A stretch of DNA of 64,000 bases, from positions 1-64,000 of the forward strand of contig VXPE01000075.1 of NCBI GenBank assembly GCA_009839745.1. The letters are read 5' to 3'. The stretch is from Candidatus Poribacteria bacterium. Its GTDB lineage: Bacteria > Poribacteria > WGA-4E > WGA-3G. Positions 3,605 to 61,032 of this stretch are shown here, in pieces (the stretch's first letter is position 1; each line of letters starts with the position of its first letter). The notes below the pieces were generated by a model that had not been told where the DNA came from, did no database searches, and saw nothing but the letters and a program-made list of their open reading frames with translations. Made by a program: the position numbers and the translations under genes.

Positions 3605-6022
3605 TCACTCTTTGAATGTAACGACGGTTACGCCCTCACCGCCTTGGCTGAGTGGCGCGAATTGGTATTTGGTTACACGCGGATCCTCACGCAACTCGTC
3701 ATGAACGGCTTTTCGCAAGGCACCCGTCCCTTTGCCGTGAAGAATACGAACTGTCGGGAGACCCGCGAGATACGCGTCATCAAGATACTTATCCGTCACG
3801 TCTAACGCCTCTTTTACAAGCAATCCTCGGATATTCAACTCACCACTGATTGTATTGGATTTACTGTATTGGATATCGAGGACAGACGTTGAAAGGTTTG
3901 ATGATTCCTGTTTTGGATGCACGGAATCGATTTCGTGGTAAGCGGCTTGCATTTGCATATTCCCAACCAGAATCTGAAGGGGTGTTTTACCGCGCGATTT
4001 GATAGCGAGGACTTCTCCAAATCGGTCGAGTTTTTTGACCCTGACCTTATCACCGACGTTAACTTTAAGTTTTGGTGGATGAGATTGCTTTTTCGGGGGT
4101 TCTTTTTTTAGCGATTTTTTGGCGGACTCTATCTGTGAAAAAGCGTTTCGGATACTATTTTTCGAGGCTTGTTGTTTGCGAATATCAGCGACAAGTTTCT
4201 CTACGGTTGTGCGTGCGTTGTTAACGATGTCGCGAGCCTCAGACTCAGCCTGCTGTTTTAAGGTATGGCGTTCGGTTTCAAGGGTTTGAAGGAGTTGTGT
4301 ATGTTTCTCGGAGGCGACTTCGGCTTTTTGAATCTTATGGTGTAAGTGTGTGCGTTCTGTTTCCAGTTCATCTTGTGTTTGCTGTAAACGCACGAGAAGG
4401 TCTTCAACAGCGACGGTGTTATTCCCTAAATGCGTTTGTGCTTCATCAAGAATTTCAGTGGGGATTCCGAGTTGCGAGGCGATTTTTAGAGCGTTGCTAC
4501 TTCCAGGTATACCTATCTGGAGTCGATAGGTCGGACGCAGCGTCGTCCAGTCAAACTCCATTGAAGCGTTCTCCATGGTGTGTTGTGTATGGGCATACGC
4601 TTTGAGCGCGCCATAGTGCGTTGTGACGATGGTATTCACCTGTCTTTCACCGAGCCACTCAAGGAGTGCCATACCGAGAGCGGTTCCTTCACTGGGATCC
4701 GTTCCGGCACCGATCTCGTCCAACAACACGAGCGAGTATTTGGCGTGTTCGATTTTCCGAAGCATCTCCGCAATCTTCGTGATATGTGAGGAGAAAGTAC
4801 TCAGACTCTGTTCTATACCTTGGTCATCGCCAATGTCAGCAAAGACCTCGTCGAAGATAGCGACCTGACTTCCGTGTTCCGCTGGGATATGTAAGCCGGA
4901 TTGTGCCATGAGCGTTAAGAGCCCGACCGTTTTGAGAACAACGGTCTTGCCACCCGTATTCGGACCGGTGATAATCAGTGTATTGAACGTTTTACCGATA
5001 TGGATGTTTGTCGGCACAACACGCGTTGGTAGATCCGTGCTTCTATCCGAATCGGCATCCGAGGGACGCTCGTTTTGAAGATGGAATTCTAACAACGGAT
5101 GCCGTGCTTCAATCAATTTGACGACACCACGGGTATTCAATTTCGGTTCAACGGCGTCTAACGCGAGACTAAAACGTGCCTTCGCGTTCAAAAAATCGAA
5201 TTCTGCTAACAGATCGAGAGACAGTTCCAATTCGTGTAGGTGGTCGCGCACGCGATCGGTGAGGTCAAGGAGGATGCGTCGAATTTCACGTTGTTCGGCT
5301 TCAGCGGTTTCATGGAGGGCGTTGTTCATCTGGACGATTTCCAAAGGCTCTACAAAAAAGGTTGCCCCACTTGTAGATTGTCCCTGAACGACGCCTCGAA
5401 AAGATGAACGCGCTTCCTGTTTTATTGGAATAACATACCGATTGTTTCGAGAGGTGATGACCTGTTCCTGAATTGCTTTCTGATGTTCCGGTGAACGCAG
5501 CGTCGCTTCGAGCTTTTGGTGTATATTTTCACGAAGACGCGACAATTTGCGACGGAGGGCGCGCAACTCAGGACTTGCGCGATCCAGCAGTATTCCGTCA
5601 GCGTCAATGCAATGGCTGATTGCTTCAACTAACGCTGGGAACACCGGCAGGGCATCGACAATCGCGAAGAGGTTGGGAAACTCCTCCCGATCACGTTTTT
5701 TGAAGACACGATGGATGTCTTCGGGAATCTGTGCGACCTTTCGGACATCAAGAAGTTCCTCAGCATCTAAAAGCGCGCCTGTCTTGGCAGCGTGGGTTAG
5801 CGATTTGCGGATATCCTTTAAACCGTTCAGCGGTATTCCACCGTAAACTTGATGAAAGAATTTCGTTTCACTGCACAACGTGAGTAGATAGCGGACTTTA
5901 TCGACATCGCAAGAGGGCGCGAGGGTGTCAACACGTGCCGTTCCGAGTTGAGAAGCGGTGTATTTTTTCAGGAGTGCACGGATTTTGTCGTATTCTAATG
6001 CTTTTTCAACACTGGATACCAC
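3605..6022 (-). CDS. mutS2: Endonuclease MutS2
   Basis: MutS-family ATPase with a C-terminal Smr nuclease domain. The family is linked to suppression of recombination and to ribosome-collision rescue rather than mismatch repair. 805 aa. Walker A GPNTGGKTVVLKT lies near residue 350 and Walker B LVLLDEIGAGTDPSEG near 430. A long coiled coil covers about 520-620, a KOW-like stretch follows, and the Smr motif HGKGTGALR is near 760. The start is GTG at 6022. It is preceded directly by a dispersed repeat that supplies AAGGAA as ribosome-binding site (see 6023-6135). First gene of the mutS2-dnaG-sigA run. Confidence 0.95.
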   Translation of the reverse strand: MVSSVEKALEYDKIRALLKKYTASQLGTARVDTLAPSCDVDKVRYLLTLCSETKFFHQVYGGIPLNGLKDIRKSLTHAAKTGALLDAEELLDVRKVAQIPEDIHRVFKKRDREEFPNLFAIVDALPVFPALVEAISHCIDADGILLDRASPELRALRRKLSRLRENIHQKLEATLRSPEHQKAIQEQVITSRNNRYVIPIKQEARSSFRGVVQGQSTSGATFFVEPLEIVQMNNALHETAEAEQREIRRILLDLTDRVRDHLHELELSLDLLAEFDFLNAKARFSLALDAVEPKLNTRGVVKLIEARHPLLEFHLQNERPSDADSDRSTDLPTRVVPTNIHIGKTFNTLIITGPNTGGKTVVLKTVGLLTLMAQSGLHIPAEHGSQVAIFDEVFADIGDDQGIEQSLSTFSSHITKIAEMLRKIEHAKYSLVLLDEIGAGTDPSEGTALGMALLEWLGERQVNTIVTTHYGALKAYAHTQHTMENASMEFDWTTLRPTYRLQIGIPGSSNALKIASQLGIPTEILDEAQTHLGNNTVAVEDLLVRLQQTQDELETERTHLHHKIQKAEVASEKHTQLLQTLETERHTLKQQAESEARDIVNNARTTVEKLVADIRKQQASKNSIRNAFSQIESAKKSLKKEPPKKQSHPPKLKVNVGDKVRVKKLDRFGEVLAIKSRGKTPLQILVGNMQMQAAYHEIDSVHPKQESSNLSTSVLDIQYSKSNTISGELNIRGLLVKEALDVTDKYLDDAYLAGLPTVRILHGKGTGALRKAVHDELREDPRVTKYQFAPLSQGGEGVTVVTFKE

Positions 6023-6135
6023 TTTTTAATTATTCCTTGCGGTTCGGTCAGGTGGGTTTGACAGATAACGTGCCTCTCCGTAGACCTAAGGGGAAACGCC
6101 CAAGCAAAAACCCCTCCGCTACGCTTACGGGCTAC
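6023..6135 (-). repeat. Dispersed leader repeat, mutS2 copy
   Basis: Read on the minus strand, GTAGCCCGTAAGCGTAGC with GGAGGG (6135-6112) is followed by TCTACGGAGAGGCA (about 6084-6071) and then CCTGACCGAACCGCAAGG plus AATAATTAAAAA (6052-6024), which touches the GTG of mutS2. The same blocks in the same order occur before the genes at 47435, 51532 and, more diverged, 57529. Confidence 0.8.
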
Positions 6136-20592: not shown

Positions 20593-20799
20593 TCATGACT
20601 TACGCAAATTGCGCGAAAAAGCAATATATTTCAGTGATTTAACCCCCTAAATCCCCCTTATCAGGGGGACTTTAAGAGGACATGCTAAGTCCTATTAATA
20701 GTTGTTAGTTATCGGTTATCGGTTATTAGTTAAAGAGGGATCTGGTCGAACCAAACCCTCTCTTAGCTGACAACTAACAACCATTTTGGGTAAATAGAA
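20593..20799. repeat. Degenerate MITE-like repeat, hairpin and GTTATCGG-type repeats
   Basis: GACTTACGCA (about 20597) and TGCTAAGTCCT (about 20683) form imperfect inverted ends like those at 39864-39985. Inside, TCCCCCT (20652-20658) and AGGGGGA (20663-20669) make a strong hairpin that could end transcription of the Wzi-like gene. Then comes a direct run of TTATCGG/TTATTAG units (about 20699-20735). No gene. Confidence 0.6.
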
Positions 20800-22252: not shown

Positions 22253-22915
22253 TTAGGATGCCTCCCCTAAGTATTTCTGCCGAACGATTTCGTAACGCGC
22301 TTCCGCCTTCTTCATCCGATACCGCACGATGAGCAGTAGAACAAACAGCATAATGAATGCAAGCAGTGCCACCATCCATGTCTGCCGCATCGTTGCTTCG
22401 AGATTCCATTTGGTGCCACGGTCTGGATGCAACCCTCCGTGCCAGATGTCTACGGCATAATAGACGATGGGGACGTCAAGGTAGGCGATAATACCGAGGA
22501 CGGCGGAATAAAGCCTGCGTTTGTCGCCTTCCAGCGCGGAACGGAGCATAAAATAACCGACGTACATGAGCCAAAGGACGAGTGTACTCGTGAGACGTGC
22601 TTCCCAATTCCACCATGTATTCCAAGCGTATCGCGCCCAGATCGGACCCGACAGCAACGCAATCGTGCAAAAGACGAGGCCCAGTTCCGCCGCGGCGACT
22701 GCGAGAAGATCGTCGGTGGATTTTCGTTGGATGAGGTATTTGATGCTGAATACGCAATTAACACCGAAGGCGACAAAAACGGTGAGTGCAGCAGAGACGT
22801 GATAGTAGAAGATTTTTTGAACTTCGAGCATTGTGCCTTCAATGCGGGCATATCCGAAGACGAGATAGAGCGAGATAAAGATGAGGATCGCGGTGATAAT
22901 ACCTATAATTTTCAT
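22253..22915 (-). CDS. ccmC: Heme-handling protein CcmC (CcsA/CcmC family)
   Basis: 220 aa, six predicted membrane helices. In system I cytochrome c biogenesis CcmC loads heme onto CcmE. The tryptophan-rich motif is WNTWWNWEARLTS (about residues 98-110), with Glu where many relatives have Asp. Flanking His residues occur in FYYHVSAA and DIWHGGLHP. Only the CcmD-like gene accompanies it; CcmA, CcmB, CcmE and CcmF are not in the window. No clear Shine-Dalgarno before the ATG. Confidence 0.88.
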   Translation of the reverse strand: MKIIGIITAILIFISLYLVFGYARIEGTMLEVQKIFYYHVSAALTVFVAFGVNCVFSIKYLIQRKSTDDLLAVAAAELGLVFCTIALLSGPIWARYAWNTWWNWEARLTSTLVLWLMYVGYFMLRSALEGDKRRLYSAVLGIIAYLDVPIVYYAVDIWHGGLHPDRGTKWNLEATMRQTWMVALLAFIMLFVLLLIVRYRMKKAEARYEIVRQKYLGEAS

Positions 22916-22935
22916 TTTTTAAACTATTAGACTCT

Positions 22936-23050
22936 TGGACTGCTCTCCATTATATTTGGGGCAGGTCTCTGGTTGGTTTCAACGAGGTCTATCGCTAAAA
23001 CGCTATTTGAAGATAGCAAAAACCACTGCGTAATGTAATGGAGCAGTGCC
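22936..23050. repeat. MITE-like element with CTCCATTA/TAATGGAG ends
   Basis: ACTGCTCTCCATTATATT (from about 22938) and AATGTAATGGAGCAGT (about 23031-23046) are inverted copies with a 2-nt indel, bounding about 110 bp. The core CGTAATGTAATGGAG is the same block as in the leader repeats (for example CGTAATGAAATGGAGAG at 57447). It lies between map and ccmC and codes for nothing visible. Confidence 0.6.
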
Positions 23051-26229: not shown

Positions 26230-26280
26230 GTTTATAGTTGTCAGCAGTCGGGAATCGGAGTTCCCGCCTACAGGAGTGAG
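26230..26280. repeat. Dispersed GTTGTCAGC/TCGGAGTTCCC repeat
   Basis: AGTTGTCAGCAGTCGGGAAT then CGGAGTTCCCGCCTACAGGAG. CGGGAA and TTCCCG form a small hairpin. Related strings are at 137-160 and 38466-38507. Confidence 0.5.
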
Positions 26281-38348: not shown

Positions 38349-38522
38349 TTGTGTTGTTAGTTATCGGTTATCAGTTTTTAGTTGTCAACGTTCAATGGCA
38401 CTTACGATTACCTGTTTTCACACCTTTCGTTGCGAATTGTGTCGTTTTTCTTCAAGGAAAGATAAGGGGAACAGTCGGAATTCGGAGATCCTTCCTACAC
38501 GGAGTCCACCGTAGCAATATTT

Positions 38523-39988: not shown

Positions 39989-40063
39989 ATAAACATATCG
40001 TCCCTACGGGACTGAAAGGGGGTGTATGCCGTTTTTCTATAAACATATCGTCCCTACGGGACT
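39989..40063. repeat. Two direct 25-bp repeats with hairpin core
   Basis: ATAAACATATCG then TCCCTACGGGACT occurs at 39989-40013 and 40039-40063, exactly 50 bp apart. The core GTCCC-TAC-GGGAC is self-complementary. Spacer 25 bp. The rest of 39807-40244 (up to the lipoprotein gene) shows no gene; AAAGGAGTG just before 40245 is that gene's ribosome-binding site. Confidence 0.7.
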
Positions 40064-40244
40064 CAAGAGGGGCAGAACTCGTGAGAAACACATAAAAAAA
40101 TGGCACTTCTGTGAAGTTGTGTTTTACAAACAGTTATTTAGCACAAGTCGTTATACTATCTTTTGTATAGACGAAGGAGAATTCTCAATATTATTGTTTG
40201 ACTAACGCACCGAGAAAAAGAAGTGAAGAAATAAAAGGAGTGAA

Positions 40245-43245: not shown

Positions 43246-43965
43246 ATGAGATATATTATGCGAATTTTTCTGCTTTTGCTCATCCTCGGAATCATCTTTG
43301 TTGGGTGTTACTTGAAGTTGGATTCCAAAGCGAAAACGGAGCGATATACTGGTCCCCAAACTGTTGACGCACTCATGGAGGCGTTCGATGATAGATATAG
43401 TTCTCATGAGAAAAAGGCTCCTGCGAAAGCACTTTATGACGGTAAACGCTACATTGCGTTCGCGTTGGCAGATATGGACACCAAGTATCCACGTGAAGAA
43501 TGGCTTCAGCTGCTCCTCAATAGCGGTATAACGATAGAGAATTTCAAAACCTATAGTGAATACCTTGATATACGCGCAGATTTAATCTTGGAAGAATTTT
43601 ACACTGGAAATGAGTGTGAAACTGTTAAAGCGAGTTATATTGAGAGCCTACGCCAAGAGTATCAATATCAGCATCAATTCATCACTGAAGCGAATCGAGT
43701 CAAGCCGGAAATGGAAGAGTGGATTGTGATAGGTGAAAACGCGCTGCCCCAAGTTCCGGGAAGAATCTACGTCCAGAAAACGGAATCAACCGCGAATATC
43801 TGGCACACAACACGTGCTGGGGCGAATTCGGAGACTGGAGAGGTTTGCTCGGTTAACGGATCGGAACTTTCCGAAAGACAGAGATTAAACCTCTTGAACA
43901 CCGGGACAGTTCCAAAAGGCTGGGAAGTCGTCTATGTAGATGGAAATGGAAACCCCGTCCGCTAA
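43246..43965 (+). CDS. Predicted lipoprotein, function unknown
   Basis: 239 aa. Lipoprotein-type signal (IFLLLLILGIIFVGCYLK, Cys near 21). The mature part is alpha-rich with KALYDGKRYIAFALADMDTK and YIESLRQEYQYQHQFITEAN, and ends with a polar region GWEVVYVDGNGNPVR. No family recognised. Upstream of the DegT-type gene, 33 nt apart. Confidence 0.65.
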   Translation: MRYIMRIFLLLLILGIIFVGCYLKLDSKAKTERYTGPQTVDALMEAFDDRYSSHEKKAPAKALYDGKRYIAFALADMDTKYPREEWLQLLLNSGITIENFKTYSEYLDIRADLILEEFYTGNECETVKASYIESLRQEYQYQHQFITEANRVKPEMEEWIVIGENALPQVPGRIYVQKTESTANIWHTTRAGANSETGEVCSVNGSELSERQRLNLLNTGTVPKGWEVVYVDGNGNPVR

Positions 43966-43998
43966 CACACGTGATTTAACTGCAAGGAAAATTAAAAA

Positions 43999-45228
43999 AT
44001 GTCTAACCCATTAGCGATTTCAGGCGGCACCCCTGTGCGAAATACAGAAAGCGAGCCGTGGTCTTCATGGCCGCTTACCACGACTGAAGAGTGGGAGTCG
44101 AAAGTTGAGCCGTTGCTCCGCGAAGTGTACCTGAGTGCGAATGAAGGCTCCGGTGGCACGATGATTGAGCGTTTGGATGAACAATATGCCCAGTATTCTG
44201 GCACGAACTACGCCCTCTTTATGCCGCATGGGACCGATTCAATCAGTGCCGCTTTAGCGGGTGCGCTGGATCTCGATGGGTTTAGCGATGGTGGCGAGGT
44301 TATCGTGCCGAATTATACCTTCGTCGCAACCGCAAGCGCAGTGTTAGAACGCCGATGCACTGTGGTGTTCGTAGACATTTCACCGGAGACCTTCACGATT
44401 GATCCGAAAGCGGTGGAGGCGGCTATTGGTCCGCAAACGCGGGCGATTCTGCCTGTCCATCTCGGAGGGCACCCAGCAGATATGGGAGCTTTACGGGAAA
44501 TTGCCCAACGCCATAACCTCGCGATTATTGAGGACTGTGCACAGGCGCACGGGGCAGAGTATCAGACGAAAAAGGTTGGATCCCTCAGCGATGTCGGGGC
44601 TTTTAGTTTCCAAGCCTCAAAAAATCTGACTTCCGGTGAAGGCGGTATGGTTACGACAAACGATAAGGATATTCACGATCGGGTCTGTGCCTTCATGAAT
44701 GTCGGACGCGCACCCGGGGGCGCACGCTGGGAATACCCGAGACTCGGATGGAACTACCGTCCCTCAGAGTATCTCGCTGCAATATTACTCGTCCGGTTGG
44801 AACTGTTAGAGTCACAAACCGATCGCCGCAATCGAAACGCAACCTATCTCTCCAACGCTTTAAAAGCGATTGAGGGTATCACACCCCCGAAGCTTGCCCC
44901 GTGGGTTACCAAACACGGGTATCACCTCTACTGCTTGAAATATGATCCCCAAGGATTTGGCGGTAAATCGCGACAGGAATTTGTGAACGCGCTGTCCGCC
45001 GAGGGCATCCCGTGCTCTATCGGCTACCGCTCTCCGCTTTCGGAAGAACCCGGAATGGCACACGTCGCGAAGAAATACCCGCACCTCATCCGATCATTGC
45101 CGTGTCCAAACGCAGCATCCGTCTGTGAGCAGAGCGTATGGCTTTTCCAGAATCTCTTCCTCAGTTCAGAAACGGATATGGATCAGATTGTGGAAGCTAT
45201 TGCCAAAATTCATCAGACATGGCGTTAA
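43999..45228 (+). CDS. DegT/DnrJ/EryC1/StrS-family aminotransferase
   Basis: PLP enzyme of 409 aa that aminates keto-sugars (nucleotide sugars or inositol derivatives). The catalytic Lys is in GAFSFQASKNLTSGEGGM. Also seen: FMPHGTDSISAALAGALD, VIVPNYTFVATASAVLERR, AIIEDCAQAHGAEY and YRPSEYLAAILLVRLE. Product probably an amino sugar for envelope glycans. The leader GCAAGGAAAATTAAAAAATG resembles the tail of the leader-repeat family. Confidence 0.9.
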   Translation: MSNPLAISGGTPVRNTESEPWSSWPLTTTEEWESKVEPLLREVYLSANEGSGGTMIERLDEQYAQYSGTNYALFMPHGTDSISAALAGALDLDGFSDGGEVIVPNYTFVATASAVLERRCTVVFVDISPETFTIDPKAVEAAIGPQTRAILPVHLGGHPADMGALREIAQRHNLAIIEDCAQAHGAEYQTKKVGSLSDVGAFSFQASKNLTSGEGGMVTTNDKDIHDRVCAFMNVGRAPGGARWEYPRLGWNYRPSEYLAAILLVRLELLESQTDRRNRNATYLSNALKAIEGITPPKLAPWVTKHGYHLYCLKYDPQGFGGKSRQEFVNALSAEGIPCSIGYRSPLSEEPGMAHVAKKYPHLIRSLPCPNAASVCEQSVWLFQNLFLSSETDMDQIVEAIAKIHQTWR

Positions 45229-45342: not shown

Positions 45343-45393
45343 ACCTGCCCGAAACGAAGTGGAGAGCAGCCCAGAGGCACATAAATTAAAGAG
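45343..45393 (+). repeat. Diverged leader-repeat copy before the DCC-LMF gene
   Basis: CCCGAAACGAAGTGGAGAGC then AGCCCAGAGGCACATAAATT ahead of the ATG at 45394. Blocks correspond to GTAATG-AATGGAGAGC and GAGAGGCA in other copies; the ACCGAACCGCAAGG block is missing. Confidence 0.5.
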
Positions 45394-47205
45394 ATGCAAT
45401 CACGAGTTAACAAACCGCTCCTTGTTTACGATAACGCTTGTGACTTTTGCCGATATTGGGTTGCGCAGTGGCAACACGTTACTGCGGACAGTATCGACTA
45501 TGCACCCTACCAAGATGTAGCGACACAATTCCCAGGGATACCCCTTTCAGCGTTTGAGAATTCAGTCCAGTTAATACTTCAGGATGGAACCGTTTTAAGT
45601 GGGGCAGCAGCTGTCCTACGCGCCTTGAACAACGGTCTGTTGCTCTGGTGTTACTACCGTTTACCCGGCTTCGCGGGCGTATCTGAAGGAATCTACCGTT
45701 TCGTTGCCCAGCATCGTCCGTTTTTCTCCGCGATGACGCGATGGTTGTGGGGGACACATACCGAGAGAACAGTGTTTTGTCTTTCGAGATGGCTGTTCCT
45801 ACGCGGACTCGGTTGTATCTACCTCATCGCTTTTTTGTCCTTGTGGGTTCAGATTCACGGACTCGTTGGGAGCAATGGGATTTTGCCCGCAGCACAGTAT
45901 CTGGAGGCTGTCCGTGAGCAAATCGGAACAGAAGGCTACTACCTCGTTCCGACCCTGTTCTGGCTGAACGCCTCGGATGTCTGCCTCAATCTCTTGTGTG
46001 CTGGTGGTGTGCTCCTGTCATTCGTCTTAATCGCCGGCTTTGTTCCGTCATTCGCCTTAATCGGTCTGTGGACGTTTTATCTGTCGCTTGTGTCAGTGGG
46101 ACAAGTTTTTCTGAGTTTCCAGTGGGATGTCTTGCTCTTAGAGGCGGGCTTTCTGGCAATCTTCTTTGCTCCGTTGCAACTACGGGAAAGGTTTACACGT
46201 GCGTTGCAACCCTCAACAGCGTTTTTATGGCTTTTCCGTTGGCTCCTCTTCCGATTGATGTTTGCCTCTGGGTTCGTTAAACTCGCCAGTGACGAGGTAT
46301 GGCGAAACCTTACGGCTCTGAATTTTCATTATGAAACACAACCGTTGCCGACATGGTTGGGATGGTATGTGCATCAGTTGCCGGAAGCGTTCCAGAAAGC
46401 GTCAGTCATCGGTATGTTCGCGACGGAATTGGTTGTCCCGTTTCTGATTTTCGCGCCGCGACGTTTACGCACCCTTGGGTGTATCGGATTAGTCGGTCTG
46501 CAAGTGCTAATCATCTTAACTGGAAACTACTGTTTTTTCAATCTGTTGACAATTGCGCTATGTCTCCTGCTGATTGACGATGCGACGTGGAAAGGGCTGC
46601 TCCCAAGACGATTGATGCCGACTATCCGCTTCGTCGAACAGCCGCTTCACCGATATGGACGTGCTGGTATAGCGATCGTCGCAACACTTCTCTTTCTGCT
46701 GAGCGGTATCCGCTTCGGTGGGCAGCTTTTCAGAGAGATAAGGTTTCCAGATGTCGCCTGGATCACACCGTTTCGGAGTGTGAATACCTACGGACTCTTT
46801 GCAGACATGACGGAATCGCGTCCAGAAATTATCGTTGAAGGTAGCAACGATCGTATCGAATGGAAGACTTACCCGTTTCGGTGGAAACCCGGAGATCTGG
46901 CAACTGCACCAAAATGGGTCGCCCCGCATCAACCGCGCCTCGATTGGCAGATGTGGTTTGCTGCCTTACAAGGCAGTTATCAAAGGACACCGTGGTTCCT
47001 CAATTTCATGGGAGCATTACTACAAGGCAAGCCTGAGGTGCTACAATTGTTGAGAGAGGATCCGTTCCCGGATAAACCCCCGCGCTATATCCGGGCAACC
47101 CTTTACGAGTATCGCTTTACGGATCTCGCAACAAAACGTTCGGAAGGCACGTGGTGGCACCGCGAATGGAAAAGAATTTATTGTCCCGCAATTTCGCTCC
47201 GTTAG
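45394..47205 (+). CDS. DCC-family thiol protein fused to lipase maturation factor-like membrane protein
   Basis: 603 aa. Residues about 8-120 form a DUF393/DCC domain with VYDNACDFCRYWVAQWQ (CxxC in the thioredoxin-like position). The rest is a multi-helix membrane protein (VGSNGILPAAQYLEAVREQ, LLLEAGFLAIFFAP, LFRWLLFRLMFASGFVKLAS) typical of the lipase maturation factor LMF1 family. Its C-terminal soluble part has WKTYPFRWKPGDLATAP and RYIRATLYEYRFTD. In animals LMF1 folds lipases; bacterial role unknown. Confidence 0.85.
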   Translation: MQSRVNKPLLVYDNACDFCRYWVAQWQHVTADSIDYAPYQDVATQFPGIPLSAFENSVQLILQDGTVLSGAAAVLRALNNGLLLWCYYRLPGFAGVSEGIYRFVAQHRPFFSAMTRWLWGTHTERTVFCLSRWLFLRGLGCIYLIAFLSLWVQIHGLVGSNGILPAAQYLEAVREQIGTEGYYLVPTLFWLNASDVCLNLLCAGGVLLSFVLIAGFVPSFALIGLWTFYLSLVSVGQVFLSFQWDVLLLEAGFLAIFFAPLQLRERFTRALQPSTAFLWLFRWLLFRLMFASGFVKLASDEVWRNLTALNFHYETQPLPTWLGWYVHQLPEAFQKASVIGMFATELVVPFLIFAPRRLRTLGCIGLVGLQVLIILTGNYCFFNLLTIALCLLLIDDATWKGLLPRRLMPTIRFVEQPLHRYGRAGIAIVATLLFLLSGIRFGGQLFREIRFPDVAWITPFRSVNTYGLFADMTESRPEIIVEGSNDRIEWKTYPFRWKPGDLATAPKWVAPHQPRLDWQMWFAALQGSYQRTPWFLNFMGALLQGKPEVLQLLREDPFPDKPPRYIRATLYEYRFTDLATKRSEGTWWHREWKRIYCPAISLR

Positions 47206-47216
47206 AACAACTTTCG

Positions 47217-47290
47217 GTAGCCTGCAACAATACGCAGAGGCACCTGAAAGTCCTAACGTCCCTGACCGAACCGCAAGGAATAATTAAAAT
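47217..47290 (+). repeat. Leader repeat, first copy before the IMP-like gene
   Basis: GTAGCCTGCAACAATACGCA then GAGGCACCTGAAAG, then CCTGACCGAACCGCAAGG and AATAATTAAAAT (47261-47290), followed by an ATG (47291) that repeats the first five codons of the IMP-like gene. Confidence 0.8.
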
Positions 47291-47431
47291 ATGCCGAGTC
47301 AATTATCAGCCGTCGATAAAGAGGTGTTCGTTAAACCTAAACGCGTAGCCCGTAAGCATAGCGGAGGGCGGATCTACGTAAAAGCACTTCAGTTATCAAA
47401 GTTACCTGACCGAACCGCAAGGAATAATTAA
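47291..47431 (+). CDS. Short open frame from a duplicated start (46 codons)
   Basis: ATG-CCG-AGT-CAA-TT at 47291 repeats the start of the gene at 47435. The frame then runs into the second leader repeat and ends with TAA inside AATAATTAA. Predicted product MPSQLSAVDKEVFVKP and on, 46 residues, with no family. Most likely a by-product of the duplication; it could act as a leader peptide. Confidence 0.3.
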   Translation: MPSQLSAVDKEVFVKPKRVARKHSGGRIYVKALQLSKLPDRTARNN

Positions 47432-47434
47432 AGT
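47345..47434 (+). repeat. Leader repeat, second copy before the IMP-like gene
   Basis: GTAGCCCGTAAGCATAGC and GGAGGG (47345-47368), GGATCTACG (47370-47378), then CCTGACCGAACCGCAAGG and AATAATTAAAGT (47405-47434) immediately before the true ATG. The 44 bp at 47405-47448 match 47261-47304 with one difference, 144 bp away. Confidence 0.85.
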
Positions 47435-48205
47435 ATGCCGAGTCAATTTTTAACCGTCGCGTTGGAAGCGTCGAAAAACGCTGAAGAAATCATCACCGCT
47501 TACTACACCGGAGATGCCATGAAAGTGGAAATGAAAGCTGATGAGACCCCGGTGACGCTCGCCGATAGAGGGGCGGAAAAAATTATCCGAGAAACCATCA
47601 AACAGACATTTCCCGACCACGGATTCTTAGGTGAAGAATATGGGATCGAAAAAGGGGATTCCCCTTATGTCTGGATCATCGACCCGATTGATGCCACAAA
47701 GAATTATATCCGAAAAATCCCAATCTTCGGCACACAGATTGCCTTGATGAAAGGCGAAGAACTTATCCTTGGTGTTTCTAACGCCCCACTTTTAGATGAA
47801 CTTCTCTACGCGGAAGTAGGGGGCGGAGCTTTCTTGAACGGCGAACCGATAACCGTGTCCAGCGTGACGCAACCCGAAGACGCGATGGTATGCCACGGTG
47901 GCCTGAAGTGGTTCGTAGAAAAAGGCACTTTCCCCGGCATCTACGATTTTATCAACGATGCCGCTCGCACGAGAGGGTTCGGTGATTTCTACATGTATCA
48001 TCTCGTGGCGTCTGGAAGAGCCGATGCCGTCGTTGAAGCGGCGATCAGTATTTGGGACATCGCGGCGATTACTGTTATCGTAAGGGAAGCAGGTGGAAAA
48101 GTGACAGATATACAAGGACAAGCCATCACGACAGATACGAATTCGCTCGTAGCAACGAACGGGATCTTGCATAGCACTGTATTAGACTACTTTAAAGATG
48201 CCTAA
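47435..48205 (+). CDS. Inositol monophosphatase-family phosphatase
   Basis: 256 aa. Li-sensitive Mg-dependent phosphatase fold: GFLGEEYGIEKG (metal Glu pair), WIIDPIDATKNYIRKIPIFG (DPID-T motif with Ala for Gly) and SIWDIAAITVIVREAGGKVT (W-D). Many such enzymes outside the inositol pathway are histidinol-phosphatases (HisN). No histidine gene is near, so the substrate is open. Confidence 0.87.
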   Translation: MPSQFLTVALEASKNAEEIITAYYTGDAMKVEMKADETPVTLADRGAEKIIRETIKQTFPDHGFLGEEYGIEKGDSPYVWIIDPIDATKNYIRKIPIFGTQIALMKGEELILGVSNAPLLDELLYAEVGGGAFLNGEPITVSSVTQPEDAMVCHGGLKWFVEKGTFPGIYDFINDAARTRGFGDFYMYHLVASGRADAVVEAAISIWDIAAITVIVREAGGKVTDIQGQAITTDTNSLVATNGILHSTVLDYFKDA

Positions 48206-49111: not shown

Positions 49112-49273
49112 GTTTTCTAACTATGTGCTTCCGGGCTACCCTCCATTACATTACGGGTAGGTTTGCAGTGAATTCATACCCCGTTCAGGATAGCTAAGGT
49201 CCCTTCTAATGCCCTTGGATGCCATTCGCAAGTGAAGGAGGTAACCTGATACCGTAGTTAAAATAACAGAAAA
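49112..49273. repeat. Intergenic region with inverted leader-repeat block
   Basis: GGGCTACCCTCCATTACATT then ACGGGTAGG (about 49132-49160): read backwards this is GTAATGTAATGGAGGGTAGC, the first block of the leader repeats. GAAGGAGG (49232-49239) is more than 30 nt from the ATG at 49274, too far for a normal ribosome-binding site. Confidence 0.5.
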
Positions 49274-51442: not shown

Positions 51443-51531
51443 GCAGCCTGCAACATCGGCGCAGGCGGATATACGGAGAGGCATATAAAAGTTCAAACCG
51501 ACCTCACCGAACCGCAAGGTAAAATTAAAAG
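51443..51531 (+). repeat. Leader repeat before scpA
   Basis: GCCTGCAACATCGGCGCAGG forms a stem (GCCTGC/GCAGGC). Then GGATATACGGAGAGGCATAT and CTCACCGAACCGCAAGGT with AAAATTAAAAG (to 51531) directly before the scpA ATG. Confidence 0.8.
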
Positions 51532-52362
51532 ATGCTAACTGAAACAACGCCAACGCCCGCCTCTACAGCCCCAATATACTCCCTGAAGTTAGAAGGTTTC
51601 GAGGGACCGCTCGATCTGCTCCTCCATCTGATTCAGAAGGAGGAGATGGATATTTACGATATTCAGATTGCGCATATCACGGATCGGTACTTGGAATATG
51701 TGAATCTAATGGAGCAGTTAGATTTAGATGTGGCATCCGAATTTTTGGTGATGGCGGCAACACTTCTGCACATTAAATCGCAAAGTATCCTCCCACAACT
51801 CTCACCGGATGCTGAATACACCATCGGTGATCAAGAGCAACTCGTTAAGCAGCTCTTGGAGTACAAACAGTTCAAAGAGGCTGCCGAAGTTTTGGCGGTT
51901 TATGCCGAACGTCAGACATTAATCTACAGCAGAAATCCTAAAATACACGAAGATTTAGAGGGAGCGCGTTCGTTTGAAATCAAGGCGACGTTGTTCGATC
52001 TCCTTACCGCTTTTAAGGGGGTGAATGATCGAGCCGCAGAGATAGAAGTTGAAGAAACTTATGAAACGGTTGAAGAGGAAACAATAACCGTTGAAGATAA
52101 AATCGCTTTTATTGATAGGCAGTTGGAAACTGAAAACCAATTGCTCTTTGATGACCTGTTTCCCGTGACCTCGACCAAGACGGATCGAATTGTAACATTC
52201 CTCGCCATTTTAGAACTCATTCGGATAGGAAAAATCGTCACTGTTCAAACCGACCATTTCGAGAGTATTTATATCGTTAAGCAGGAGCAAGAGGCGGATG
52301 ATCGAGAGATTCCGCCACCTCCAACCGTTGAAAACACTCGTTCAGAAGAACGAAACAATTAG
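51532..52362 (+). CDS. scpA: Segregation and condensation protein A
   Basis: Kleisin subunit of the SMC-ScpAB complex that compacts chromosomes. 276 aa. N-terminal SMC-neck-binding part: LKLEGFEGPLDLLLHLIQKE then EMDIYDIQIAHITDRYLEYV. Acidic middle (VEEETITVEDKIAF). C-terminal winged helix (FLAILELIRIGKIVTVQTDH) binds the SMC head. SMC itself is not in the window. 11 nt before scpB. Confidence 0.95.
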   Translation: MLTETTPTPASTAPIYSLKLEGFEGPLDLLLHLIQKEEMDIYDIQIAHITDRYLEYVNLMEQLDLDVASEFLVMAATLLHIKSQSILPQLSPDAEYTIGDQEQLVKQLLEYKQFKEAAEVLAVYAERQTLIYSRNPKIHEDLEGARSFEIKATLFDLLTAFKGVNDRAAEIEVEETYETVEEETITVEDKIAFIDRQLETENQLLFDDLFPVTSTKTDRIVTFLAILELIRIGKIVTVQTDHFESIYIVKQEQEADDREIPPPPTVENTRSEERNN

Positions 52363-57440: not shown

Positions 57441-57528
57441 GTAGCTCGTAATGAAATGGAGAGCGGATTTAAGGAACGCATCCGATAGGTCTAACGCCCG
57501 TTGTTCCTCCGCAAGGTAAAATTTAAAA
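57441..57528 (+). repeat. Leader repeat before cstA, diverged
   Basis: GTAGCTCGTAATGAAATGGA then GAGCGGATTTAAGGAACGC, then TTCCTCCGCAAGG and TAAAATTTAAAA directly before the ATG. Same block order as at 47345 and 51443. Confidence 0.7.
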
Positions 57529-59421
57529 ATGAATACGCTTATTATTGCGATCTTAAGCTTCATCGGTTTCATTGTTGCCTATCATACCTATGGCAAATGG
57601 TTGGCGAGAAAGATTTTCGGATTAGATGCCCAAGCCACAGTACCGAGTCAGGAGCTGCGAGATGATGTCGATTACGTTCCAACGAAAAAAGAGGTCATCT
57701 TTGGGCACCATTTCACGAGTATCGCGGGTACAGGTCCAATCGTAGGACCTGCCATTGCCGTTTTCTGGGGATGGCTACCGGCGTTGCTTTGGGTTGTCCT
57801 CGGCTCGGTTTTCATCGGTGCTGTCCATGACTTCGGGGCACTCGTTGTCTCCCTCCGTAACCGTGGGCAAAGTGTCGGCGAAGTTGCAGGGCGGATGATC
57901 GGTCCACGCGCGAAATTTCTCTTCCTTTTCGTCCTTTTTATGGGGTTGACCATTGTTCTTGCCATTTTTGGCTTGGTCATTGCCCTGATTTTCTCCTACT
58001 ACCCTGAATCCGTCCTGTCCGTTTGGGTGGAAATTCCGCTCGCTGTTGCCATCGGTGTCTGGATCTATCGTAGGGGGGGCAATATTCTCATTCCCTCGAT
58101 TGTCGCGCTCGGTATCATGTACATCGGGATGGCAGTTGGTGCGTATCTCCTACCGATCGATCTCTCGCAATGGTTCGGCATCCCCTTGCTCGGAAAAACT
58201 TACCTAAACGTTGTGGTGATCTGGACACTGGTGCTTTTCGTCTACTGCTTTATCGCCTCGGTATTACCCGTCTGGACGCTTCTGCAACCGCGTGATTTCA
58301 TCAACAGCCATGAACTTGTATTAGCACTTCTCCTATTAGTGCTTGGACTTGCCGTTGCAGGTTTCACAGGCAGAGCGGATCTGACAGCCTCCGCGCCGGC
58401 TGTTGCCTCAGACATCCCACCCGATGCTCCACCGATTTGGCCCTTCCTCTTTATTACGATTGCGTGCGGTGCGGTCAGCGGTTTCCACTGTATGGTGAGT
58501 TCCGGGACTTCCAGTAAACAGGTCGCCTCCGAAGGCGACGCGCAATACGTCGGATACGGGGCGATGCTACTCGAGGGTGGACTTGCCGTTATCGTTATTC
58601 TTGCCTGCTGTGCTGGCATCGGTATGGGGATTTTCAACCGGACGGGGACTGGTGCAAACTATACCTTCCAACCGATTGTCAAGGCAGATAGCGCAACCCC
58701 TGTTACGAATCACGACGCCTGGAAAGCGCGCTACGCTATCAAAACGGAAACAAGTGCTGACGGGACGACTACGGTCGTCAGCGGTTGGGCAAGCCACGGA
58801 CTCAAGGCGAAGGTGAGTGCGTTTGTGGACGGAGGTGGAAATTTCCTCGCCTCCCTCGGTATTCCGCTCAAGATGGGCATTGCGATTATGGCGGTTCTCG
58901 TTGCGAGTTTCGCCGCTACAACGTTAGACACAGCGACACGACTCCAACGGTATGTTATCTATGAACTGGCGCAAACGGTTAACTTCAAGCCGTTAACCAA
59001 CCGTTATATAGCGACTGCGTTCGCGTTAGTGCTCGCCGCCGCAGTTGCGCTGCTACAGGGACCGAGTGGTCCTGGCAGTGGCGGTTTGACGCTCTGGCCC
59101 CTCTTCGGTGCGACAAATCAACTCTTAGCCGGATTAGCCTTCATGGTCATCGTTTTCTATCTCCTACGCCGCAACAAACCGATCTGGTTCGCACTCCTGC
59201 CGATGATCGTCATGCTCATCATGCCTGCATGGGCAATGCTCCACCAGATGTTCAATCCTGAAACAGGATGGCTTTTCACTGGCAAATATTTACTCTTCGG
59301 ATTCGGTGTTGTCGTGGAGGCGTTACAGGTCTGGATGATCGCTGAAGGGGTCCTCGCGTGGCGACACGCCCGTGGCAACTACCCGGAACTTCCACCGTTG
59401 GAAAGTTTCGCCACCGATTGA
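57529..59421 (+). CDS. cstA: Carbon starvation protein CstA (peptide/pyruvate transporter)
   Basis: 630 aa, about 15 membrane helices. CstA-family proteins take up peptides or pyruvate. Typical segments: HFTSIAGTGPIVGPAIAVFW, VHDFGALVVSLRNRGQSVGE, GFHCMVSSGTSSKQVASEGD (near residue 325) and VASFAATTLDTATRLQRYVI, then LFGATNQLLAGLAFMVIVFY. Length is slightly shorter than E. coli CstA (about 700). Single gene with own leader. Confidence 0.95.
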   Translation: MNTLIIAILSFIGFIVAYHTYGKWLARKIFGLDAQATVPSQELRDDVDYVPTKKEVIFGHHFTSIAGTGPIVGPAIAVFWGWLPALLWVVLGSVFIGAVHDFGALVVSLRNRGQSVGEVAGRMIGPRAKFLFLFVLFMGLTIVLAIFGLVIALIFSYYPESVLSVWVEIPLAVAIGVWIYRRGGNILIPSIVALGIMYIGMAVGAYLLPIDLSQWFGIPLLGKTYLNVVVIWTLVLFVYCFIASVLPVWTLLQPRDFINSHELVLALLLLVLGLAVAGFTGRADLTASAPAVASDIPPDAPPIWPFLFITIACGAVSGFHCMVSSGTSSKQVASEGDAQYVGYGAMLLEGGLAVIVILACCAGIGMGIFNRTGTGANYTFQPIVKADSATPVTNHDAWKARYAIKTETSADGTTTVVSGWASHGLKAKVSAFVDGGGNFLASLGIPLKMGIAIMAVLVASFAATTLDTATRLQRYVIYELAQTVNFKPLTNRYIATAFALVLAAAVALLQGPSGPGSGGLTLWPLFGATNQLLAGLAFMVIVFYLLRRNKPIWFALLPMIVMLIMPAWAMLHQMFNPETGWLFTGKYLLFGFGVVVEALQVWMIAEGVLAWRHARGNYPELPPLESFATD

Positions 59422-59574: not shown

Positions 59575-59868
59575 ATGACAGATACACAAATTCCGAAGTG
59601 GCTGTCTGCCTTGAGTGAAGAAGAACTCCACTTCGTCAAACGATTTGTCTTAGCCTCCGGGTCGCTCAAGGACTTAGCAAAACAGTATAAAGTTTCATAT
59701 CCAACCTTGAGAATCCGGTTGGATCGGCTTATAGACAAAATTAATATCGTTGATGACTCCGATGCGGAAAACCCGTTTTTATTGAAAATTCGGTTGCTGG
59801 TCGCGGAAGGTACGTTGACGCAAGCCGCCGCAAGGGCACTTATCAAGGCTTACGAGGAATCAAAATAA
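59575..59868 (+). CDS. DUF2089-family helix-turn-helix protein
   Basis: 97 aa. WLSALSEEELHFVKRFVLAS then GSLKDLAKQYKVSYPTLRIR matches DUF2089, a sigma-region-4-like HTH, with the second half LVAEGTLTQAAARALIKAY also typical. Probably a DNA-binding regulator of its own operon. Its stop overlaps the next start (TAATG). Confidence 0.88.
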   Translation: MTDTQIPKWLSALSEEELHFVKRFVLASGSLKDLAKQYKVSYPTLRIRLDRLIDKINIVDDSDAENPFLLKIRLLVAEGTLTQAAARALIKAYEESK

Positions 59869-60263
59869 TGAATGAAACTTGGATTTCACAGCAAGAACTG
59901 GGTATTTTAATGATGGTGATATTCATTCCTCTCGGTCCAATCGTCGGAACATTGGGATGGTTGTTTGTTCCAAAAGGAAAAGCCAAAAAACTTACTTTAG
60001 GTGTTCTCGCTTTTGGATGTGTCATGGGTTTCGTATTGTTGGTGTTTGGTATAATCGCATATTTCTTCGGACAACCGCGTTGGGTATGGTTGAGGTCCAT
60101 TTTTTTCGGTCTAAATGACACAGTTCTATTTGCCTTTGTTTATTGGGTAATTCTCAAAAGATATAGAGAAGCCGAACTCAGAAAATCGATGTCTGAAGAC
60201 CTCACATTCGGAGGGAACAAGACGCAGGACATAAATAACAGGAAAGAGAAGGAGGAATTCTGA
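59868..60263 (+). CDS. Small membrane protein, paralogue 1 of 3
   Basis: 131 aa, three to four membrane helices. Shares with the next two genes the start MNE(T/P)WI, a Gly-rich first helix, (F)VPKGKAKKLTLGV, GIIAYFFGQPRWVW and the end EAELRKSMSEDLTFGGN. The soluble tail is likely cytoplasmic. Proteins of this type often sit beside DUF2089 in other phyla (from memory, not checked). No function known. Confidence 0.75.
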   Translation: MNETWISQQELGILMMVIFIPLGPIVGTLGWLFVPKGKAKKLTLGVLAFGCVMGFVLLVFGIIAYFFGQPRWVWLRSIFFGLNDTVLFAFVYWVILKRYREAELRKSMSEDLTFGGNKTQDINNRKEKEEF

Positions 60264-60658
60264 TGAACGAACCTTGGATTAGTAACACTGGAATGGTAGG
60301 TGGTATATTGGGTTCAATGATAGGTATCCTCGGTGGCGTTGTAGGAACATTGGCAGGCGGATTTGTTCCAAGGGGAAAAGCAAAGAGACTCACTTTGGGC
60401 GTTAACACCTTCGCGTTTGTTTTATCGTTCACTTCACTTGTTGTCGGTATAATCGCATATCTGTCGGGACAACCTCGTGACGTATGGTACGTATTTGGCT
60501 ACATCGGACTCCTTTGCACAGTTGGATTTGGTACGGGTTTTTGGGTAATCCTCAAAAGAGCAAGAGATGCTGAACTCAGAAAATCTATGTCCGAAGACCT
60601 TATGCTTGGTGGTAACGAGAAAGACACCATGAAAAAAAAAAGAAAAGGAGGTTTCTGA
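60263..60658 (+). CDS. Small membrane protein, paralogue 2 of 3
   Basis: 131 aa. MNEPWISNTG, then GILGSMIGILGGVVGTLAGG, FVPRGKAKRLTLGVNTF, VVGIIAYLSGQPRDVWYVFG and DAELRKSMSEDLMLGGNE. Starts by TGATG overlap with paralogue 1, with AAGGAGG upstream. Closest in sequence to paralogue 3 in the helices and to paralogue 1 in the tail. Confidence 0.75.
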   Translation: MNEPWISNTGMVGGILGSMIGILGGVVGTLAGGFVPRGKAKRLTLGVNTFAFVLSFTSLVVGIIAYLSGQPRDVWYVFGYIGLLCTVGFGTGFWVILKRARDAELRKSMSEDLMLGGNEKDTMKKKRKGGF

Positions 60659-61032
60659 TGAATGAACCTTGGATTAACCCCGGAATACTGGGGAGCATAT
60701 TAGGTGGAATTGGTGGTACTCTTGGTGGAGTCGTCGGGACTTTAGCAAGTTTTTTTATCCCAAAAGGAAAAGCAAAGAAACTCGTTTTAGGGGTCGACAT
60801 TTTTGGCTTTGCTCTATCAGGCCTCTTACTTGTAGTTAGCATAATCGCGTATTTGTCAGGACAACCTTACAGTGTATGGTACGGATTTGGTCTCTGTGGA
60901 CTGATTGGGACACCCCTCTATGGAATGCTTTTCTTTGTATTTCGCAGTGAATATAGGAAAGTCGAACTTAGAAAGGCTATGTCTGAAGATCTAACACTTG
61001 GAGGGAACAGTGACGACCAAAACGAAAACTGA
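60658..61032 (+). CDS. Small membrane protein, paralogue 3 of 3
   Basis: 124 aa. MNEPWINPGILGSILGGIGG then TLGGVVGTLASFF, IPKGKAKKLVLGVDIFG, SIIAYLSGQPYSVWYGFGLC and KVELRKAMSEDLTLGGNS. TGATG overlap with paralogue 2 and AAAGGAGG upstream. Last gene of the operon; a terminator-like hairpin follows at 61121. Confidence 0.75.
   Translation: MNEPWINPGILGSILGGIGGTLGGVVGTLASFFIPKGKAKKLVLGVDIFGFALSGLLLVVSIIAYLSGQPYSVWYGFGLCGLIGTPLYGMLFFVFRSEYRKVELRKAMSEDLTLGGNSDDQNEN

Follow-up and report, generated by a model that had tools for sequence, protein, structure and literature searches.

The DNA analysed here, the window, is a stretch of 64,000 nucleotides from contig C75 of genome G000 (5.04 Mb, 141 contigs) of Candidatus Poribacteria, in which a short repeat stands directly before the start codons of mutS2, an IMP-like gene (IMP), scpA and cstA. 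Among the relatives of its mutS2, 52 Poribacteria loci come first. The initial annotation had named five full copies. All five are present where it placed them, and each was found again independently by a covariance model of the module, which was built from 37 copies. The full copies and the related pieces in the window are the following:

6020–6135, minus strand: type A module before mutS2 with hairpin 1, hairpin-2 arms and tip; the start codon is GTG at 6022
6025–6042, minus strand: tip of the mutS2 module, CCGCAAGGAATAATTAAA
6160–6206, plus strand: inverted half of hairpin 1, head-to-head with the mutS2 module and 24 nt upstream of it
about 22916–22968, minus strand: short related leader, second copy, before a gene starting at 22915
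43936–44001, plus strand: 5'-truncated type B copy, fused, just past the upstream stop codon
43980–43997, plus strand: tip of this truncated copy, ctgcaaggaaaattaaaa
45342–45393, plus strand: short related leader with one hairpin and a ATAAATTAAA end; the gene starts at 45394
47217–47293, plus strand: first type A module before IMP, with shortened hairpin 1, followed by ATGCCGAGTCAATT and a 46-codon ORF
47345–47437, plus strand: second type A module before IMP, adjoining the IMP start codon (47435)
49137–49163, minus strand: fragment of hairpin 1 alone, inverted relative to the neighbouring genes, seen in the sequence
51443–51534, plus strand: type A module before scpA; ATG at 51532
57441–57531, plus strand: type B module before cstA; ATG at 57529

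All five full copies end 2 nt before a start codon, which behind the first IMP copy is that of the 46-codon ORF. In the window 6 matches to the 18-nt tip are found at up to 3 mismatches, with 0.31 expected. The two forms of block order described in the initial annotation are two subtypes. Subtype A has TACGGAGAGGCA..ACCGAA and subtype B has TTGAGGAACGCACGT..GTTTCT, while hairpin 1 and the tip are common to both; of the full copies, that at cstA is B and the other four are A. Relics had been listed at four further places, and these differ in kind: that at 43974 (plus strand) is a genuine 5'-truncated copy, those at 45343 and 22936 belong to a shorter leader that is related, has a single hairpin and likewise runs into an AT-rich end in front of ATG, and that at 49132 (minus strand) is only an inverted fragment of hairpin 1. 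It had gone unnoticed that one gene has both the copy at 47217 and that at 47345 as leaders in tandem; the former resembles the leader of the relative G066, the latter that of G061. In the region 47217–47437 it looks as though recombination had placed an incoming allele next to a resident leader.

The core of the repeat is 87–92 nt long. It begins with hairpin 1, followed by hairpin 2, which is imperfect and exists in two subtypes, and by the tip CCGCAAGG-WAWAATTAAA, which read outward is a putative Shine-Dalgarno sequence (AAGG) followed by an AT-rich spacer. Hairpin 1 occurs with different stems (AGCCTGC..GCAGGC, AGCCCG..GGGC, AGCTCG..GAGC, AGTCCG..GGAC and AGCACG..GTGC), and its compensatory changes, a check proposed with the initial annotation, are real: 98.6% of the cells are paired and 29 are altered on both sides, whereas in a slid alignment at most 50% are paired, and none of 500 shuffles reaches the covariation observed. 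Support for hairpin 2 is modest in type B (70–74% paired), and in type A none is predicted by RNAalifold. At the foot of hairpin 1 an AG is conserved, mostly as GTAG (alignment A4); a GTAG foot is also characteristic of REPs. That hairpin 1 is an independent REP was rejected, because the tip follows it in 61 of 70 occurrences and several of the others belong to a variant. In predicted folds the AAGG core of the tip is slightly more open than native Shine-Dalgarno sequences (0.54 versus 0.45, p = 0.007). The loop of hairpin 1 (6060–6135 and many other copies) often holds a nested insert, GTTTTTGCTTGGGYGTTTC or AATACGCAGAAATACCCAAGCAAAAACACGC, which is itself a dispersed sequence; in the mutS2 module the insert is about 30 nt long. 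In the variant, CGCCTTGCGAATAATTAAA replaces CCGCAAGG..AATTAAA (in G000 on C12, minus 14680; C17, plus 41830; C41, plus 44750; and C42, minus 46198). Its core is the reverse complement and therefore without a Shine-Dalgarno sequence; some copies nonetheless stand before ATG.

The dispersed leader repeat is far larger than the window could reveal. In G000 the exact sequence of the tip, CCGCAAGGWAWAATTWAA, occurs 301 times, and the reversed pattern used as control 0 times. Among the 85 genomes of the phylum in which exact tips were counted, those of the same genus contain 179–315 (eight genomes), 58 (one) or 0–50 (the rest), and those of other genera 0–2. The high-copy clade consists of G000, G053, G060, G061, G066, G074, G077 and G083, the last being a complete genome (OX639992). 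The covariance model likewise yields at least 50 matches in most genomes of the genus, none in the complete genome G080, and only isolated matches outside the genus; by the two counts together, other genera have 0–3 matches. The expansion of the repeat is confined to one clade within a single genus. The isolated copies elsewhere (G018:C5, G045:C101, G046:C48 and C57), some of which stand before start codons, may come from gene transfer or from binning errors.

For the analysis of placement 1.17 Mb of G000 were read, which contain about 150 (150–151) tips with at most 2 mismatches. The contigs read whole have 62–188 tips per Mb, values that are upper estimates, since the stretches read were in part picked for holding copies. 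The start codon of an ORF of at least 100 codons lies exactly 2 nt past the tip in 48 of 150 cases, as compared with 7 of 186 control AATTAAA sites unlike the tip (p = 1e-12); with a start at 0–4 nt the numbers are 65/150 and 22/186 (p = 6e-11). Of 93 exact tips, 42 have such a start at 0–4 nt and 32 at exactly 2 nt, the corresponding value for random positions being 3.4%. Random placement relative to start codons, which had been named as an outcome speaking against a leader module, is thus refuted. The orientation is equally biased: 103 tips point toward the start of the next gene and 20 toward a stop, and at codirectional junctions the numbers are 86 and 16 (p = 9e-13). A codirectional upstream neighbour is found for 52 of 59 tip-led genes (707 of 951 genes overall); most tip-led genes therefore lie inside probable operons, and what such a gene would have been missing is probably not a promoter. 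It should be noted that a third of the tips (49/150) are in no interpretable place, some of these being the in-frame fusions described below.

A tip-like putative ribosome-binding site precedes the start codon of 92 of the 943 G000 genes sampled, 37 times with hairpin 1 and 55 times without, versus 4 of 943 at a control position inside genes. In low-copy relatives it is found at 2 of 158 starts (G080) and 2 of 174 (G081), together 4 of 332. A mobile repeat thus appears to have taken over the translation start of about one tenth of the genes examined. The few copies of low-copy genomes are also mostly at starts; one of the genes led by them is, judged from its N-terminus, probably fusA. The tip-led genes, named from Pfam domains for 30 downstream genes, include mutS2, IMP, scpA, cstA, tatD, pheS, hisF, fmt, proC, rsmE and der, and further prfA, purE, ddl, secD, secF, a pfkB kinase, ABC transporters and others. 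They are unrelated and often essential (e.g., pheS, prfA, fmt, der, secD), in agreement with the housekeeping genes seen in the window, and no functional coherence of the kind expected from a regulon was found among the 30.

The leaders of orthologous genes were compared in G066 and G074 (about 95% DNA identity to G000), G061 (90%), G083 (86%), G050 (83%) and the low-copy genomes G075 and G081 (80%). The same start codon differs even between close relatives in the presence, subtype and truncation of the module, and identical placement in all relatives was not seen. Before scpA, for example, G000 has type A, G066, G077 and G060 have type B, G083 has a B-like module, G061 retains a tip remnant, G074 has nothing, and in G050 and G075 the leader is native. 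Before cstA, G000 has type B, G066, G074, G061 and G083 retain the tip or a piece of it, and G075 and G081 have a native leader. IMP has a module in G050 and in every high-copy genome of the comparison, but these differ in type and sequence. The module of the gene at 43999 is truncated in G000, G066 and G074 and full in G061 and G083, and the short leader before the gene at 45394 is present in G000 and G074, the other relatives having a native leader. At position +95675 of contig C41 an insertion of 134 bp lies exactly between two genes whose ends overlap in G074 by ATGA: the left part of the insertion gives the upstream gene a TAG end, its tip provides AAGG and spacer, and the empty site is clean, without target duplication (a duplication of TAA is possible at another site).

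The initial annotation had offered two explanations, a mobile or copied 5' untranslated module with its own Shine-Dalgarno sequence and a shared cis-regulatory RNA. The first is supported by the hundreds of copies, the sharp spacing to the start, the covariation of the stem, the presence/absence and subtype differences between relatives, and the essential genes behind the tip. A regulatory RNA (riboswitch, thermosensor or protein-binding leader) governing a large regulon and duplicated before its genes would fit the covariation of hairpin 1 and a few leaders conserved far above third codon positions: that of mutS2 (95–97% versus 69–73%) and two long-lived copies in low-copy genomes (94% and 88% versus 60% and 58%). 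These are exceptions, however. Orthologous copies of the same type show a median conservation of 75% as compared with 77% at third codon positions, so that general conservation of copies at orthologous starts was rejected; the subtype is switched in 19 of 69 ortholog pairs, with rapid gain, loss and switching already at 95% gene identity; there is no regulon; and in the window Rfam finds only tRNAs and no family that matches the repeat. Since orthologous copies are not generally conserved, we consider a shared regulatory RNA highly improbable. Nor is the tip under stronger selection at starts: this was considered and rejected, for the tip is equally intact in copies at starts and away from them, and its conservation alone is therefore no proof of function site by site. 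The well-conserved exceptions suggest that some copies may now be fixed functional leaders while most are turning over.

Full modules are trimmed down to the tip, as orthologs show directly: at cstA, scpA and C41 +39587 partial copies retain the tip where relatives have the full module. The deletion junctions show microhomology. By our own count about 30 covariance-model matches are clearly shortened and only one match lacks the 3' end, a rarity to which the model itself contributes, since a large share of its score lies in the tip. There are also 18 cases of tandem tips spaced by less than 60 nt, and in many of these pairs the tips differ, which points to independent, repeated arrivals at one start. 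Ten of the 150 tips lie directly before an older tip and 7 before a native Shine-Dalgarno sequence.

Copies are also tolerated away from start codons. Read in reverse the tip holds TAA, and long ORFs that run into it end on the tip in 11 of 16 cases. Where a tip has no start codon and a long ORF follows, 19 of 25 continue in the frame PQGKIK (p = 1.6e-5), and the resulting fusion reads ..LTEPQGKIKN.. at the protein N terminus; by sequence, the fusion partners are probably MurG, CoaBC, RuvC, SDR and ABC proteins. G000, G066 and G083 have the module as a variable linker of a large protein encoded on C42, other genomes having other linkers in frame. This linker (C42:96200–97400 and orthologs L331–L360) is hypervariable and contains in each genome different repeats of intergenic type in frame. 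For a second copy inside a gene (C3) the empty site was judged from match coordinates. That the module is a conserved coding element was rejected, frame 0 being open in 38% of copies and in 30% of shuffles; in the fusion frame, most type B modules are closed. What these placements share is tolerance, at gene boundaries and in linkers.

The differences between relatives could in principle arise without any mobility of the element, if leaders spread by recombination or gene conversion between copies and species and were favoured as good leaders. Switching between A and B at one locus, the G066-like and G061-like leaders in tandem before IMP, and the microhomology at deletion junctions are all in line with this. 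It does not account well for arrivals at starts without a previous copy or homology (C41 +95675, −86251 and −160373), nor for copies at stop codons and in protein linkers. We therefore regard recombination as quite unlikely to be the sole means of spread, and the copies have probably spread by transposition.

No mobiliser was found. Between facing tips there is no transposase or other mobility gene in the 1.17 Mb of G000 and the stretches of relatives read; only ordinary genes lie there, and an autonomous element whose terminal repeat would be the tip was rejected. RAYT/IS200 as mobiliser was likewise rejected, because the number of Y1 genes does not track the copy number and their loci are not flanked by the repeat: in five high-copy genomes, 20 Y1_Tnp loci gave two matches, both distant.

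The bias toward starts could be due to dedicated machinery that inserts the element at start codons or Shine-Dalgarno sequences, selection then having only a minor part in it. The single exact offset (32 of the exact and 48 of the near-exact tips) and the clean insertion right before ATG at C41 +95675 would agree with this, and the arrivals directly before older tips or native Shine-Dalgarno sequences (17/150) leave room for a target preference. Against it, neither facing tips nor Y1 loci revealed such machinery, tips at stop codons and in protein linkers are better explained by selection for tolerance, and A-rich targets near starts could yield part of the bias. Targeting as the main cause is in our opinion unlikely. 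Equally doubtful is the far-reaching version in which a mobile family seeks out initiation regions and replaces the ribosome-binding sites of the host, so that about one tenth of the genes, essential ones included, would depend on a translation start derived from a parasite.

Several known families resemble the repeat in part. Rickettsia palindromic elements (RPE) are small hairpin repeats that occur in many copies and in unrelated genes and form in-frame fusions with proteins (PMC10969869). The repeat described here, likened to RPE by their description, has all of these properties; unlike RPE it is found mainly at translation starts, its end is a putative ribosome-binding site, and its type B modules are mostly closed in the fusion frame. 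REPs and REPINs are hairpins with compensatory changes that occur singly and as inverted doublets, mainly outside genes (PMC3116915). MITEs such as Correia, ERIC and BOX/RUP are non-autonomous intergenic elements with up to hundreds of copies that can alter the expression of neighbouring genes, and Correia elements carry promoters (PMC10969869). The repeat, too, is non-autonomous and intergenic with hundreds of copies; unlike MITEs, its single copies have no clear terminal inverted repeats (no inverted left end was found on single modules), and it brings a putative ribosome-binding site rather than a promoter. In the MITE review the words "ribosome" and "start codon" are both absent. Transposon-related stem-loops that are dispersed, have compensatory changes and are kept next to genes are located at 3' ends of genes (PMC2775950); they have no ribosome-binding site, whereas the repeat is at starts.

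The repeat might nevertheless be a classic REPIN or MITE, a head-to-head double element being what replicates and the single modules being its remnants. Like REPINs it has a covarying hairpin with GTAG foot, singles and a minority of inverted doublets at fixed spacing: an inverted half of hairpin 1 lies 22–36 nt upstream in 9 of 68 modules, a direct half in none, and there are a few complete inverted pairs of 215–254 bp. However, single modules predominate, GTAG is at the inner side of the pair, there is no RAYT near the repeat at the Y1 loci and no autonomous relative was found, and REPINs are not known for so strong a tie to start codons. The repeat fails the defining tests of a MITE (ends, autonomous partner) and of a REPIN (RAYT), and we consider this origin rather unlikely. 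In its mode of action it would be most similar to RPE in its in-frame tolerance and to REPINs and MITEs in hairpins and dispersal.

Our preferred reading, to which we give a probability of roughly 0.7, is that of a non-autonomous dispersed repeat which the tight junctions between genes tolerate because its end would serve as ribosome-binding site. The family itself, its positions, the covariation, the turnover and the truncation are read directly from the sequences. Copies would enter short junctions between genes and would persist mainly with the tip about 2 nt before a start codon, where the repeat would restore the initiation that it would otherwise disrupt. The start bias would then be mainly a matter of selection rather than of targeted insertion, since in a tight junction the repeat is harmless only if initiation is restored. 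Later the hairpins would be lost by deletions between short homologies and the tip would stay as resident ribosome-binding site of the gene; newer copies would arrive upstream of old tips, and subtypes would be exchanged. That the tip works as a ribosome-binding site is suggested by its AAGG, its spacing, the essential genes behind it and its retention in remnants.

Repeats of bacteria bring promoters, terminators and binding sites to the genes next to them. Among the open papers searched, none was found that describes a repeat ending in a ribosome-binding site in register with start codons, and none that combines Poribacteria and an intergenic repeat. If the preferred reading is correct, a simple rule of survival would hold for a repeat in a compact genome, namely to repair the junction that it breaks; mobile DNA could replace the ribosome-binding sites of essential genes wholesale, and the remnants would resemble ordinary Shine-Dalgarno sequences. 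The copies would also offer hundreds of natural replicates for testing what makes a leader tolerable.

The window contains other repeats. A second family (..AGTTATCAGTTATCGGTTA.., with the inverted end ..TAACTGATAACTGACAACTATTAAAA) is found at 20701–20731, 38353–38383, 133–159 and 26231–26257 and also in leaders of G074 and G066; in several relatives it stands directly before start codons, and it may occur at the same junction as the tip module. In non-coding DNA at 39989–40072 lie two tandem repeats of 34 nt each, 91% alike and 50 nt apart, and at 59868–61032 there are three tandem paralogous genes of 124–131 codons with 65–81% DNA identity.
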